DNA from: J061 sp003695725 [NCBI: Candidatus Schekmanbacteria bacterium]
GTDB lineage: Bacteria; Schekmanbacteria; GWA2-38-11
Assembly (NCBI GenBank): GCA_003695725.1
Contig: RFHX01000005.1
Coordinates: 1 to 14,474 of the forward strand
Length of the DNA: 14,474 nucleotides
Direction of reading: 5' to 3'
Under the pieces are notes generated by a model, which was given only the letters and a program-made list of their open reading frames with translations, did no database searches and had not been told where the DNA came from. A program made the position numbers and the translations under genes. Of this stretch, positions 1,489-5,745 are shown in pieces (the first letter of the stretch is position 1; every line of letters starts with the position of its first letter).

Positions 1489-3381
1489 TTACATTTTAAG
1501 AATGAAATTAATTTTTCCATCTTCCTCGATTACCTTGATTAGTTCTCCATATGATGTATTGAGTGAATCGACTCCTGCATTTGAAAAAAATTCTTCCAGT
1601 TTTTTTTGATAACTCATCATAAGTTTTTCTTGGTCCTGAAGGTTCTTCTTAATCTTCAAATATTCAGAAACTATAATCTCAAAAGTAATGGCACTGGTTA
1701 ATCCGGCTGTCTTCTGCTTGAGAGATTCGAGATGAAGAACTGGTGTAGGATACATATTCAACAAGGGCTCAAAGGTGCAGTTGCAGTCAACAGAAGAAGT
1801 AATATCCGGCACTCTTGTCCTGATTTTCGGACAACTAATTGGATTGCCTCGTAATCTGCTTTTTAGATATGAAGAAGAGTCCGCATTAACACATTTTTGT
1901 AGGATAGCATTTACAGCAAGAGGGCCATTTTTTAGATGACCCACCGAATGGGAAAGAACAATTATTTCATCATTAGAAAGTTGCGAAGTTTGATTGGCTT
2001 TTTCATATATCTTCTGGATAACCGGACATTTGAGAGCTATGTATTGGAACTCTTCATCATTATCTATATTATATTCTTCAACATAAATTGCTCCTTTTAA
2101 TGAATCTTTTTCAGAAATGGAGATTTCTTCGACTCCTGCCTCTTCTTCACTCTCAACAATCTTTTTATTTGTAGGATGGTAAAGAGGGTAGATATTCTTT
2201 TTTTCTTCAATATATGAATAAATAGATGATTTTGTTGCTGATTCAATCCCAAACAAAAAGGCAAATTGGTCCTTATATGGATTTCCTTCCCCATCTACAA
2301 AAAGTCCTCTCTCCATAGTTTTTCGGTGAATTCCAAAGGGTAATTTGATGAGATTGCCAAGACTTCCTTCTTTGACAAACTTTTGCTTTGGAAATATCTC
2401 AATTGAAAGGAAATCATCTGCTTTAATTGATGAGACGATTCGGCGTGCAAAATCTCTCGCAATACTCGCTCGCAAAGGTGATTTCAAAAATATCCAACAA
2501 TGATAGCCTTTATAACCGCTATCTTCTATATAGGAAAAGACATCGGAAGTGGCACATTCATTTACAATTGATTTTGCAGTTTTTAAAGCTACCTTTTTTG
2601 CTGATTTCCATTGTTGTCTGTCTGTTATGAATTTTGGAATAAATCGACTTGATATATCAATATCAAAGGCAATAAAATTTACTGTATTGTCGAGACGAAC
2701 AGGATATATACCTACGGTAAAATTTCCCAATATGTGGTTTTTTGCCACCTTAAAAGTGAAAGGCTCTCTCACAACTGAATAGCCAGTGTCGCCCGTTTGA
2801 CTTGCCCACTGTCGCGCATATACGCCTTCTCTTCCTGAAAAAAGCTCAACAAAGCGTAAAAGTTGTTCATCTGTGGGAAGAGGAAAATGATAGTCATCTT
2901 CTGTTTCAATAGAATCTTCTGAATCTATTCTTTCCTTTGCCAATGCTTCAGCAATATGTTTATACTTCTCATCAGAAGTTGTTTCGAATGCCTTCTCATA
3001 GTGAATTCTTGCTTCTTCATATTGATTTGTTTCCTCAAGCACTTCACCTTTGAGATCTAATAATTCTTTACTTGATGGGGAAAATTTAAGTGCTTTATTC
3101 AAACATTTTAGTGCTTTTTCAAACTCCCCGCTATCGACCAACGCTTCTGAAACTTTTAAGACAACTTCTTCATTTTTAGGATTGTCTCTTAATGCAAGGT
3201 TATATTCTTTAAACATCATCTCACTCAACCCAAGTTCTTCATAAATCCTTGCAAGAGATAGATGAAAGTCACTGTCAAATATTTCTTGTGAAGGAAATTC
3301 TTTTGCAAGAGCTCTGATTTCATCAGTAAGGTTTTCCTTTGCAAGGGACCTGATTTTTTGTTCGAAAGAATTTTTATCCAT
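1489..3381 (-). CDS. TPR-fused CRISPR-associated primase-polymerase (CAPP-like, AEP superfamily)
   Basis: Large protein (630 residues) heading the adaptation operon. Seen in order: about three TPR-like helical repeats at residues 39-137; an archaeo-eukaryotic primase catalytic domain at about 170-380; a cysteine-bearing helical domain at about 445-537; a coiled-coil-like helix at about 565-600; and a short C-terminal beta segment. Primase motifs are intact: motif I FDIDIS (Asp240, Asp242), motif II SGYKGYHCW (His294), IEIFPKQ (Glu328) and GNLIKLPFG. The cysteines at 452, 497, 517 and 533/535 are spaced like the Fe-S ligands of PriL. Known CRISPR-associated primase-polymerases of this superfamily make primers and extend DNA, and are linked to adaptation. 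Here the gene abuts cas1, so supplying or completing prespacer DNA is the likely role (inference). ATG start with GGAG 7 bases upstream. A relationship to TOTE-type primases is the main alternative label. Confidence 0.85.
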   Translation of the reverse strand: MDKNSFEQKIRSLAKENLTDEIRALAKEFPSQEIFDSDFHLSLARIYEELGLSEMMFKEYNLALRDNPKNEEVVLKVSEALVDSGEFEKALKCLNKALKFSPSSKELLDLKGEVLEETNQYEEARIHYEKAFETTSDEKYKHIAEALAKERIDSEDSIETEDDYHFPLPTDEQLLRFVELFSGREGVYARQWASQTGDTGYSVVREPFTFKVAKNHILGNFTVGIYPVRLDNTVNFIAFDIDISSRFIPKFITDRQQWKSAKKVALKTAKSIVNECATSDVFSYIEDSGYKGYHCWIFLKSPLRASIARDFARRIVSSIKADDFLSIEIFPKQKFVKEGSLGNLIKLPFGIHRKTMERGLFVDGEGNPYKDQFAFLFGIESATKSSIYSYIEEKKNIYPLYHPTNKKIVESEEEAGVEEISISEKDSLKGAIYVEEYNIDNDEEFQYIALKCPVIQKIYEKANQTSQLSNDEIIVLSHSVGHLKNGPLAVNAILQKCVNADSSSYLKSRLRGNPISCPKIRTRVPDITSSVDCNCTFEPLLNMYPTPVLHLESLKQKTAGLTSAITFEIIVSEYLKIKKNLQDQEKLMMSYQKKLEEFFSNAGVDSLNTSYGELIKVIEEDGKINFILKM

Positions 3382-3419
3382 AACTCTACTCCATATAAAA
3401 AGAATTGAAGTAAATAATC

Positions 3420-3489
3420 TTTCTGAAATATTTTAGATTTAAGAATTGTTTGATGGTATAAAAGAAATATTTCAGAAATATTTTCTTTT
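3420..3489. repeat. Paired 15-base AT-rich repeats upstream of the adaptation operon
   Basis: TTTCTGAAATATTTT at 3420-3434 recurs as TTTCAGAAATATTTT at 3470-3484, differing at one base, with the copies 50 bases apart. The second copy is overlapped by the perfect 10-base palindrome GAAATATTTC at 3464-3473. The block 3460-3489 is nearly self-complementary overall. Lying 40-110 bases before the primase-polymerase start, these could be regulator binding sites. A hairpin in the leader RNA is the other reading. AT-richness makes a chance match possible. Confidence 0.4.
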
Positions 3490-3632
3490 TAGTTATATGA
3501 TTTGCACAAATTATCTATTTGGTCTGCTAACAGTTAGGTTAAAGTAGAAAGGCAAATTCCAATGCTGATTTTTCTTCTGAAACCGATTTGCCAAAGGATG
3601 GGAACAATTTTCGAGAGAGATTGTGTGCCGCT

Positions 3633-4622
3633 TCAATTATAGCCAGTTGTCGAAGCCTTTCCTATCTGTATGACTTCACTAAACTTTATCTTGCCCATAA
3701 TAAGAGAAAAAATTCCCTGTCCCAATGTTGCAAAAAATTGCACACTATGAAGAATGATTGAAAAGGCAAGTGCCTCAGATTTTTCGATTCCATACAACGA
3801 AAGGGCAATGATGCAGAAATATTGAAAATTCCCAATAAACCCCGGCGCTGACGGAATCATAATGCCGATGCTGATTATAATAAAAGCTGTCAATGCAGCA
3901 GTTAGAGGCAGTTTCAAATCAAAGGCAAAAAACAACAAATAGGTGTTAAAGACAGGAATTACCCAAAAAAAGAGTGAAATTACACTTGCCAATACTACTG
4001 CCCTCTTATCAGGCATTATATCAAATCCCTTTTTGAAGGAATCAAAGAGGTTAAGGATTTTTTCCTGAAAGGGGGCTAACAATTTGTTTGAAGTCATCTT
4101 TGCGAGAAATGTTCTGCCTTTCCATAGGATAATTATGAAGACCCCTATCAAAACAACTATTCCAACTAACGCATCTTTGCCAGATTCGATTACATTTTGG
4201 GGCAAAGGGGCATAAATTATGGCAAAAACAATAAAGATGAAAAGGGTGCCGGCATCAAGAATCCTCTCTACGACAGTAGTGGCAAGAGATGTGGAAATTG
4301 GCAGTTTCTCCTGTTTAGCCATCAGATAAGGCCGAAGAAGATCACCTAATCGAAAAGGAAGAATATTTATTCCCATAAATCCGATGCAGTGAACATAATA
4401 AACCATAGCAAGACGAATTCTTTTTATAGGATTTAAAATCAACTTCCATCTTAGAGATTTGAAAAGCTGAAGAATTACACTCAATGCAAACATAGGAATG
4501 AGATAGTAATAATTGCACGACTGAAGGGCTGATTTCAATTCAGAATAAGCAACACGGCTTATTGCAAGATAGATGAAAAAAGCGCTTATCAAAATTCCTA
4601 TGATGAATCCTTTTTTCTTCAC
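3633..4622 (-). CDS. LPG-synthase-TM (UPF0104/flippase-like) integral membrane protein
   Basis: Polytopic membrane protein of 329 residues resembling the transmembrane domain of lysylphosphatidylglycerol synthases (UPF0104-type). The N-terminus (KKKGFIIGILISAFFIYLAI) is a classic first membrane helix after a basic start. About seven to eight hydrophobic helices follow. Typical marks are SLRWKLIL near residue 55, INILPFRLGDLLRPYL near 90-105, TTVVERILDAG near 120-130 and the IPSAPGFIGNFQY segment near 255-267. Members lacking the soluble MprF domain are often linked to lipid or polyprenyl-linked glycan handling; no substrate can be assigned here. The start is GTG at 4620-4622 with a GAGG-type site 8 bases before it. 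It follows the SDR gene by 3 bases and is surely co-transcribed. A 40-codon open frame overlaps its 3' end (see findings). Confidence 0.85.
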   Translation of the reverse strand: MKKKGFIIGILISAFFIYLAISRVAYSELKSALQSCNYYYLIPMFALSVILQLFKSLRWKLILNPIKRIRLAMVYYVHCIGFMGINILPFRLGDLLRPYLMAKQEKLPISTSLATTVVERILDAGTLFIFIVFAIIYAPLPQNVIESGKDALVGIVVLIGVFIIILWKGRTFLAKMTSNKLLAPFQEKILNLFDSFKKGFDIMPDKRAVVLASVISLFFWVIPVFNTYLLFFAFDLKLPLTAALTAFIIISIGIMIPSAPGFIGNFQYFCIIALSLYGIEKSEALAFSIILHSVQFFATLGQGIFSLIMGKIKFSEVIQIGKASTTGYN

Positions 4623-4626
4623 ACTA

Positions 4627-5517
4627 TTACGCCTCGCCCAAAATTTTTTTTATTCCATTCATATAGCTATGCCTTTCAATCGGATAGTATTTCAAGAAAT
4701 CTTCGCTTTTTACTTCTTCTTCATCCATCATACTGAGCTGGTCAGAAGATATTGGGTAGAAAGAAAATCTTTCGAGAGCCCTTGTAACAAGCCGCAAAGG
4801 AATACGCGGAAGATAGAAAAAATGCGGGGTTTTGCCGCTAATCTTCGCAATTGTTTCTATCATCTCTTTGTAAGTCATCTCCTGAGGACCTTCGAGGTCG
4901 AGAGTGCGTGATATGGTATTGTCTTCCTTAATGATGGTGTGTATTGCTTCAAGAAGGTCTTCAACAAAAAGGGGTTTAATTTTTTTATGGCGGTTAGCAA
5001 TGAGAGGGACAATTGAGGAATTTGCCAATTTGATAAAGTGTGCTGTTGAATTGTCTCCTTTCCCATATATCAACGGGGTTCTCAGAATCAAATAGTCAAA
5101 GGGAAAATTTTTGATAAGCTCTTCACATATTGATTTACTCCTTAAAAATTTTATCTTTGAATAAGGTGAAGCGCCTAATGCGCTCAAAAAGATAAATTTT
5201 CGGGCTGAAATTTTTTCCGCTATGATCAGAGCATGTTTTGTTGACAAGAAATTCGAAGTTTCAAAATCTATTTTCTTTCTCTTAAATTCTCTGAAAATTC
5301 CTGCAAGATGAACAACTACATCTGCTTGTGGATAAGAAATAGAAAGTGACTCTGGAGAGGAAATATCTGTGGGAATAATTTCAATACCTTTTATGTGAGC
5401 AATCTTATAAATGGATTCCCTTCTTGCCAAAGCAAATACATCAAAGCCCTTCTGCTTTAAAAATTTGCACAAAGCCGTACCAACAAATCCTGTTGAACCG
5501 GTAATCAGCACATTCAC
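4627..5517 (-). CDS. NAD(P)-binding SDR-family protein (NDUFA9-like atypical epimerase/dehydratase)
   Basis: Rossmann-fold nucleotide-sugar or lipid-modifying type protein of 296 residues from the start chosen here. The N-terminal VNVLITGSTGFVG carries the TGxxGxxG dinucleotide motif at residues 6-13, followed by an ALARR segment that suits NADP. Further on are VVHLAGI and the FLSALGASPYS...FLRSKS...EEL pattern typical of the atypical SDR branch that includes NDUFA9-like proteins. The catalytic-type YxxxK is altered: Phe124 sits at the Tyr position with Lys128 retained, so it may bind rather than turn over its ligand. The frame stays open 36 codons further upstream, but GTG at 5515-5517 is preferred because GAGGGAGG lies 10 bases before it and the Rossmann strand begins immediately. 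It is operonic with the downstream membrane protein. The substrate is unknown. Confidence 0.82.
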   Translation of the reverse strand: MNVLITGSTGFVGTALCKFLKQKGFDVFALARRESIYKIAHIKGIEIIPTDISSPESLSISYPQADVVVHLAGIFREFKRKKIDFETSNFLSTKHALIIAEKISARKFIFLSALGASPYSKIKFLRSKSICEELIKNFPFDYLILRTPLIYGKGDNSTAHFIKLANSSIVPLIANRHKKIKPLFVEDLLEAIHTIIKEDNTISRTLDLEGPQEMTYKEMIETIAKISGKTPHFFYLPRIPLRLVTRALERFSFYPISSDQLSMMDEEEVKSEDFLKYYPIERHSYMNGIKKILGEA

Positions 5518-5527
5518 TTTCTCGACG

Positions 5528-5535
5528 CCTCCCTC
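5528..5535 (-). promoter_or_regulatory. Shine-Dalgarno deciding the SDR gene start
   Basis: Read leftward this is GAGGGAGG, a near-perfect anti-16S match, 10 bases before the GTG at 5515-5517. It supports that start over the longer open frame, whose extra 36 residues do not look like part of the Rossmann fold. Confidence 0.75.
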
Positions 5536-5745
5536 GAAATAGGAAAAAAGAGAATTTATCGTTTTTTTAGAATAAATCAGAATCAAATTGTGAGCAAGTG
5601 CTTGTTGTCGATATTTGCAATACACAAAAGCTTTGTATCCCTTTATTTTTTCATCTTTTTAAGTTAGAAGATTTGAGCAAAAAATTGAGCTATTTGAAAA
5701 AAGCCGCTTTGAAGAAATGATTCACATCAATAAAAAGAAACTATA

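Follow-up and report, generated by a model that had tools for sequence, protein, structure and literature searches.

What does a primase-polymerase contribute at the head of a CRISPR adaptation operon, and must it copy nucleic acid to be of use there? The question is raised by a contig of the Schekmanbacteria genome J061 sp003695725 (RFHX01000005.1; contig C5 of genome G000), which was analyzed over its whole length of 14,474 nucleotides (the window) and belongs to an assembly of 374 contigs and 2.77 Mb. Three genes follow one another on the minus strand of this contig: a gene with an ATG start encoding a protein of 630 aa (3381-1489), cas1 (1477-413; PF01867, 307 bits) and cas2 (411-136; PF09827, 91 bits), the last of which lies 1 base after cas1. 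The first gene is separated from cas1 by 11 bases if cas1 begins at the upstream TTG given as its start in the ORF list, and by 17 bases, the spacing noted in an initial sequence-only reading, if it begins at the alternative ATG at 1471. That reading had regarded the locus as an adaptation operon led by a TPR-fused primase-polymerase, which was thought to make or trim double-stranded prespacers for Cas1-Cas2 while its TPR part docks Cas1 or another partner.

The 630-aa protein is identified as a CRISPR-associated primase-polymerase (CAPP) of class A, TPR type, by agreement among NF040561, PF22548, Foldseek and VIA. The NCBIfam model NF040561 (CRISPR-associated primase-polymerase type A1) scores 350.9 bits, relative to a cut-off of 200. 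At the N terminus is a TPR domain (residues 3-156; 2914..3375, minus strand) in which eight Pfam TPR models exceed their cut-offs, the best stretches residing inside residues 63-141, and for which the structure model displays nine helices, as expected from the repeats perceived earlier in the sequence alone. This is followed by the AEP primase-polymerase catalytic domain (residues 169-400; 2182..2877, minus strand), which is recognized by PF22548 (AEP-TOTE; 162 bits, E 1.8e-47, residues 173-388) and by a sequence match to the Prim-Pol domain of the Marinitoga CAPP (PDB 7nqd, E 1.3e-38), with related matches to 7nqf, 7nqe and 7p9j. The motifs that had been picked out by eye are located at residues 239-244 (FDIDIS), 288-296 (SGYKGYHCW), 327-333 (IEIFPKQ) and 342-350 (GNLIKLPFG), and the catalytic residues D240 and D242 (motif I), H294 (motif II) and E328 (motif III) are all intact. 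D240 and D242 align with D177 and D179 of the Marinitoga piezophila enzyme (MpCAPP), the mutation of which abolishes activity (PMC8211822), and E328, when counted by hand along the alignment, falls on Marinitoga E260, a residue reported to contact the initiating ribonucleotide.

The fold of the catalytic domain was likewise found as the initial reading had anticipated. An AlphaFold2 model built from 31 sequences has a mean pLDDT of 87.4 and a pTM of 0.48, and because of the latter value the arrangement of its domains relative to one another is not trusted; an earlier model built from 5 sequences (pLDDT 73.0, pTM 0.39) was set aside as poor. The AEP domain of the model matches 7nqf in Foldseek (E 2.7e-18) and superimposes in VIA on the solved Marinitoga CAPP with a Z of 31.2 and an rmsd of 1.7 over 219 residues, the next AEP family, Prim-PolC, following at a Z of 14.0. 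The VIA rows barely cover residues past 394, and so these statements about fold are limited to the AEP domain. Trimming of prespacers, as put forward in the initial reading, received no backing, as no nuclease family is present among the Pfam and NCBIfam matches of the protein. The same matches include no helicase family and no reverse transcriptase (RT) family.

Downstream of the AEP domain are two further parts. The cysteine-bearing primase C-terminal domain (residues 440-557; 1711..2064, minus strand), which the sequence-only reading had also recognized, carries C452, C517, C533 and C535 and is mostly helical in the model, with mean pLDDT values of 68-97 in ten-residue blocks over 441-560. 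The C terminus itself (residues 561-630; 1492..1701, minus strand) is an addition to the earlier account of the protein. It matches the Mu-Gam/Gp157-like model PF22709 at 43.7 bits (cut-off 27, residues 570-629), and is modeled as a long helix (561-602) followed by three strands (606-629) with block pLDDT values of 64-95. Mu Gam binds DNA ends, and it is from this background and from the name of PF22709 that a putative function for the tail is suggested by analogy.

Both the E-G and the LHSVEYGRPSLTLDIMEE motifs are found in the window cas1, which is the single Cas1 match in the genome. The contig terminates 135 bases beyond cas2, at the place where several relatives have an array, and no CRISPR array is found within the window. 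Rfam and tRNA scans of the window returned no matches, and a scan for promoters and terminators gave no excess relative to shuffles. Upstream of the operon, at 3416-3491, are two A+T-rich 26-base copies that are 81% alike and lie 50 bases apart, perhaps representing a regulatory site, or chance. Beyond these, genes resembling lysylphosphatidylglycerol synthase (PF03706) and NAD epimerase (PF01370) occupy 3633-5625 and are read as ordinary chromosome.

Elsewhere in the genome, one Cas10 match and one RAMP match reside on contig C313, apart from the operon contig, and are accompanied by a 130-aa ORF that by eye looks like a candidate Csm2. On the basis of these three genes, a link between the operon and a type III-A system is likely. 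The Cas6 model PF10040 has no match in the genome, and matches in only 2 of 14 control genomes. Two patterns derived from the repeats of relatives found no array elsewhere in the genome, a search that other repeats would escape. A pattern search of viral contigs picked up 12 stretches, none of which was confirmed. Relatives of the protein on plasmids and phages match its AEP part alone, at less than 31% identity among the matches listed (30 of 94 for plasmids, 20 of 21 for phages), and those on plasmids are mostly situated within helicase proteins, again among the matches listed.

The same arrangement recurs in other genomes. The first four relatives, found by a scan of genome contigs, belong to Thermodesulfobacteriota (three) and Aminicenantes (one). 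All have the order CAPP-cas1-cas2, a locus in which a CRISPR-like repeat occurs at least twice and a Cas10 in the genome, and share with the window all four cysteines of the C-terminal domain. In one of them (L041:11632-12675), cas1 is split over two ORFs by an in-frame stop. A larger sample came from the phylum to which G004, the Thermodesulfobacteriota genome that contains locus L038, belongs. Matches at E 1e-30 or better occur in 42 of its 395 genomes; 46 matches were listed and 30 loci examined, two of the loci being duplicates (L048 is the same place as L038, and L049 the same as L040). A cas1 ORF is present in the short flank of 28 of the 30. At L059 the gene is truncated at the end of its contig, and the other half lies on a second contig, followed by cas1 (L087). 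The CAPP of L066 (L133:5852-7474, genome G300) is a real exception, having intact motifs and no cas1, cas2 or array within 14 kb.

In an alignment of 31 CAPPs (A3), from which the duplicates L048 and L049, the contig-end gene L059 and the gene with an in-frame stop at L060 are omitted, D240, D242, H294, E328, C452, C517 and C535 are identical in every row, and C533 is identical in 16. PF22548 and NF040561 each match all 31. Several loci of the sample are unusual in other ways. The CAPP-like gene of L060 (also L125, genome G299) is interrupted by an in-frame TGA; the gap between CAPP and cas1 at L117:8223-8895 (the same place as L053) is unusually long, and the frame preceding cas1 there has a short repeating peptide pattern that probably reflects non-coding repeats; and at L112:3101-5080 (G291) an AEP domain is followed by an RT domain in one ORF that reaches the end of the contig.

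The Gam-like tail divides these proteins into a long and a short form. PF22709 matches 14 of the 31 aligned CAPPs at E 0.001, a number equal to that of the long-form rows (14), membership having been confirmed singly for twelve, namely the window and eleven genomes above the cut-off. Across the 395 genomes the cut-off is passed in 14, of which 12 owe the match to a long-form CAPP (that of G051 being split between contigs). In a tree of the AEP and cysteine domains, the long form occupies one side of a branch supported at 100/100, in a tree that carries a long-branch warning; the corresponding branch has 94/91 in the tree of the AEP domain alone. Several results count against a clean long-form clade: the short-form CAPPs of L061 and L063 group with the long form in the AEP tree (98/94), support falls to 86/74 when the degenerate proteins described below are included, and the long form is not one group in the tree of the cysteine domain. 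The Marinitoga CAPP resides among short-form CAPPs in the best AEP tree, and its union with the long form is not rejected (AU p 0.0595).

A search with PF22709, together with the remaining matches in the genome sample, uncovered nine loci (L102-L108, L113 and L114), all from the one phylum sample, in which the CAPP homolog has no intact catalytic site and is here called a pseudo-CAPP. Eight of the genes are intact (L102:7761-9539, L103:687-2549, L104:7669-9390, L105:12850-14691, L106:8550-10325, L108:1-1803, L113:2733-4451 and L114:2577-4352); the ninth (L107:5682-7657) contains a frame change that was left unmended, and it was omitted from the trees and, along with L108, from the profile. None of the eight intact proteins keeps either D240 or D242, and all have arginine in place of H294. 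Glutamate at position 328 is kept in six of them, while the KQ and GNLIK parts of the neighboring motifs are lost. All four cysteines, by contrast, are kept in each of the eight. The 35 other rows of the same table all retain the aligned DxD and H. The lost residues make it appear that the pseudo-CAPPs are inactive.

Despite this loss, the kinship of pseudo-CAPPs with the family is clear. When a profile of seven pseudo-CAPPs is compared with a profile built from five long-form CAPPs, the two align across 563 columns (probability 100, E 3.6e-81), LVH of L106 being set against DID in the window protein, and the alignment extends through the region of the Gam-like tail. The eight intact pseudo-CAPPs form one clade, supported at 100/100 in the large tree and at 95/77 when the tree is built from the cysteine domain; support for placing them next to the long form is weak (82/98), and the long-branched L112 shares that fork. 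The tail itself is variably recognized, PF22709 exceeding its cut-off in two of the nine pseudo-CAPP genomes (G033 and G395), scoring below it in four (G024, G045, G064 and G376) and not being listed for three (G087, G099 and G378). NF040561, in turn, matches the proteins of L102, L104, L105, L106, L113 and L114 at 298-337 bits, all above the cut-off of 200. This curated equivalog model thus names six of six tested pseudo-CAPPs primase-polymerases despite their missing catalytic aspartates.

Pseudo-CAPP genes occupy the same operon setting as their intact counterparts. A cas1 gene adjoins eight of the nine (seven of the eight intact genes, that of L108 lying at a contig end), and the Cas1 glutamate and His/Asp motifs are found in seven of eight Cas1 ORFs at these loci, the remaining ORF, that of L103, being truncated ahead of the second motif. 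An array is present in seven of the nine loci, where the commonest 30-mer occurs 4 to 82 times, and the loci of L106, L102 and L104 include Cas10, RAMP and CARF-type proteins, with Csm2 also at L106. One feature sets this group apart: in all seven pseudo-CAPP loci that reach past cas1 (L102, L104-L107, L113 and L114) there are two adjacent and visibly different cas2 genes, whereas no second cas2 is seen at any of the 27 loci that pair another CAPP with cas2, several of which, the window included, end soon after cas2. Since the pseudo-CAPPs form one clade, this association may represent a single event.

Replacement of the lost activity by a reverse transcriptase was considered and rejected. No other ORF in the pseudo-CAPP loci matches the RT part of L112 in phmmer, RVT_1 has no match in five of the nine genomes, and in the remaining four the RVT_1 matches lie on different contigs or, for G376, about 340 kb distant. 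A search of open-licence main texts, including those of PMC8211822, PMC9048733 and PMC10910872, with queries that mostly contained no wording for inactivation, returned no report of stand-alone pseudo-CAPPs; a figure legend in PMC10910872 mentions AEP and PrimPol among new associations of the adaptation module.

Sequence and model show the AEP fold, the intact motifs I-III and the CAPP-cas1-cas2 order of the window, and a Cas10 gene is present in the same genome. It is probable, with good though incomplete confidence, that the window protein is a catalytically active class A CAPP of the TPR type, which serves spacer acquisition by a type III system. An adaptation role is the best, though still putative, reading. 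By extension from its Marinitoga relatives, the AEP domain would prime with GTP opposite CC on single-stranded DNA, extend with dNTPs and displace strands, and the TPR and AEP half of the protein would hold Cas1. We further infer that, beside Cas1-Cas2, CAPP could make prespacers by rendering single-stranded fragments double-stranded, fill repeat gaps after integration, or do both. The cysteine domain, perhaps with the Gam-like tail, may act as a scaffold that binds DNA or protein; such a second role could persist without catalysis, as the pseudo-CAPPs suggest. Counting against an active CAPP of this kind are the lack of an array in the window and, as judged by two repeat patterns, elsewhere in the genome, the location of Cas10 on a separate contig, the CAPP of L133 with no cas1 and the split cas1 of L041.

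Synthesis could serve gap filling after integration rather than the making of prespacers, with CAPP staying on Cas1-Cas2 to fill and displace the repeat strands. This is a refinement of the active-CAPP explanation, and the likelihoods assigned to the two overlap; we consider it possible, with the balance somewhat against it. In vitro, MpCAPP carries out displacement on a post-synaptic substrate, and both prespacer making and gap filling are proposed for it (PMC8211822), yet gap filling has no need of de novo priming, of which the family is capable. The conservation of E328, the equivalent of E260, is weak evidence in the same direction, as this residue also constitutes motif III in polymerase catalysis. 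Far less credible, indeed very improbable, is a generic repair primase or TOTE-type conflict primase that merely adjoins cas1. The Pfam models that recognize the AEP domain and the tail do take their names from TOTE conflict systems, and distant AEP relatives do occur on plasmids and phages; set against this, a cas1 ORF adjoins the gene at 28 of the 30 loci, and all 31 aligned proteins match NF040561.

A further challenge to the active-CAPP reading comes from the pseudo-CAPPs, whose existence shows that synthesis by CAPP is apparently not needed everywhere, and suggests that a putative scaffold function is separable from it. Conceivably, the function chiefly conserved is that of a non-catalytic scaffold for Cas1-Cas2 and DNA, composed of the TPR and cysteine domains and perhaps the tail, synthesis being an accessory in some lineages, that of the window among them. 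Eight intact proteins have dispensed with D240 and D242 and carry arginine for H294 while retaining the four cysteines; cas1 lies beside seven of them and two cas2 genes accompany six, as is also the case for the frame-broken L107; five of the nine genomes have no RVT_1 match; and an inactive Prim-Pol domain kept in RT-CAPP fusions is reported as unexplained (PMC10415136). However, the DxD and H of the 35 other rows indicate strong selection on catalysis outside the pseudo-CAPP clade, and the tail is poorly kept within it, as the two PF22709 matches over cut-off attest. As an account of the family as a whole, a primarily non-catalytic function is unlikely, if well short of negligible. The chances are closer to even, and still slightly adverse, for a combined proposal in which CAPPs have a catalysis-independent core: the TPR and four-cysteine domains, joined by the Gam-like tail in the clade of the window, would make up a scaffold holding Cas1-Cas2 and guarding or measuring prespacer ends. 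The window enzyme would perform both jobs, and the other clade would have lost the copying site, kept the TPR and cysteine parts and gained a divergent second Cas2, possibly forming a Cas2 heterodimer.

The mode of action of CAPPs in adaptation is still a proposal. Because pseudo-CAPPs occur naturally in the same operon setting, scaffold and enzyme are separated there without engineered mutations, and the question becomes directly testable. Annotation by NF040561 hides this difference between active and degenerate proteins, as it did in all six tested.

Comparison with known systems indicates which of these features are familiar. CAPPs were defined in PMC8211822, where the TPR-AEP-CTD protein is the first type of class A, and two of them, from Marinitoga and Dysgonamonadaceae, were reported to have primase, polymerase and strand-displacement activities and to bind Cas1. 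Integration by Cas1-Cas2 was reported as well, and a role of CAPP in adaptation was offered as a proposal (PMC8211822); no in vivo role was found in those parts of the literature that were examined. For the Marinitoga piezophila protein, binding of Cas1 was traced to a fragment comprising the TPR and AEP domains (aa 1-360), the C-terminal domain binds Argonaute, and the TPR takes part in self-association (PMC8211822). Docking of Cas1 by the TPR part, as in the initial reading, would be one possible basis of the first of these interactions. Priming by the Marinitoga enzyme is reviewed in PMC10345425. The window protein resembles this CAPP (NF040561; 7nqd, 7nqe, 7nqf, 7p9j and 7qaz) in its order of TPR, AEP and cysteine-bearing C-terminal domains, its DxD/H/E motifs, its operon with cas1 and cas2 and the type III system of its genome, at about 35% identity over the AEP domain to the proteins of Marinitoga piezophila and Marinitoga sp. 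1137. It belongs to the long-form clade with the Gam-like tail, a possible further difference from the Marinitoga CAPP. A TPR-AEP-CTD protein beside cas1-cas2 is thus already known as the type example of class A, and the sequence-only interpretation, right in outline, is not new.

More distant systems share some of these parts. With TOTE conflict systems, in which TPR, OB, TBP and effector genes occur together (as cited in PMC12458937), the window protein has in common the AEP and Mu-Gam/Gp157-like models (PF22548 and PF22709), both over cut-off, but its gene lies beside cas1-cas2 and no helicase family was matched. CAPPs of class B (Bacteroidetes, VirE-N type) are likewise described as Prim-Pol proteins that bind Cas1 in type III loci; by that description they are simpler, have no TPR and belong to a non-intersecting homology set (PMC8211822). 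The RT-CAPP fusions, such as the CART-CAPP of Caloramator australicus, possess a Prim-Pol of the same family and also act in CRISPR adaptation, but have an RT where the window protein has a TPR domain, the motifs of the latter protein being intact. In the fusions studied, the Prim-Pol is inactive, the RT is proposed to replace it, and the reason for its retention is called unclear (PMC10415136). Pseudo-CAPP genes, unlike the fusions, contain no RT, and none was found in their loci, so the replacement proposal does not fit them. They also bear on this puzzle, being cases in which a domain that appears inactive has been retained where neither gene nor locus was found to contain an RT.
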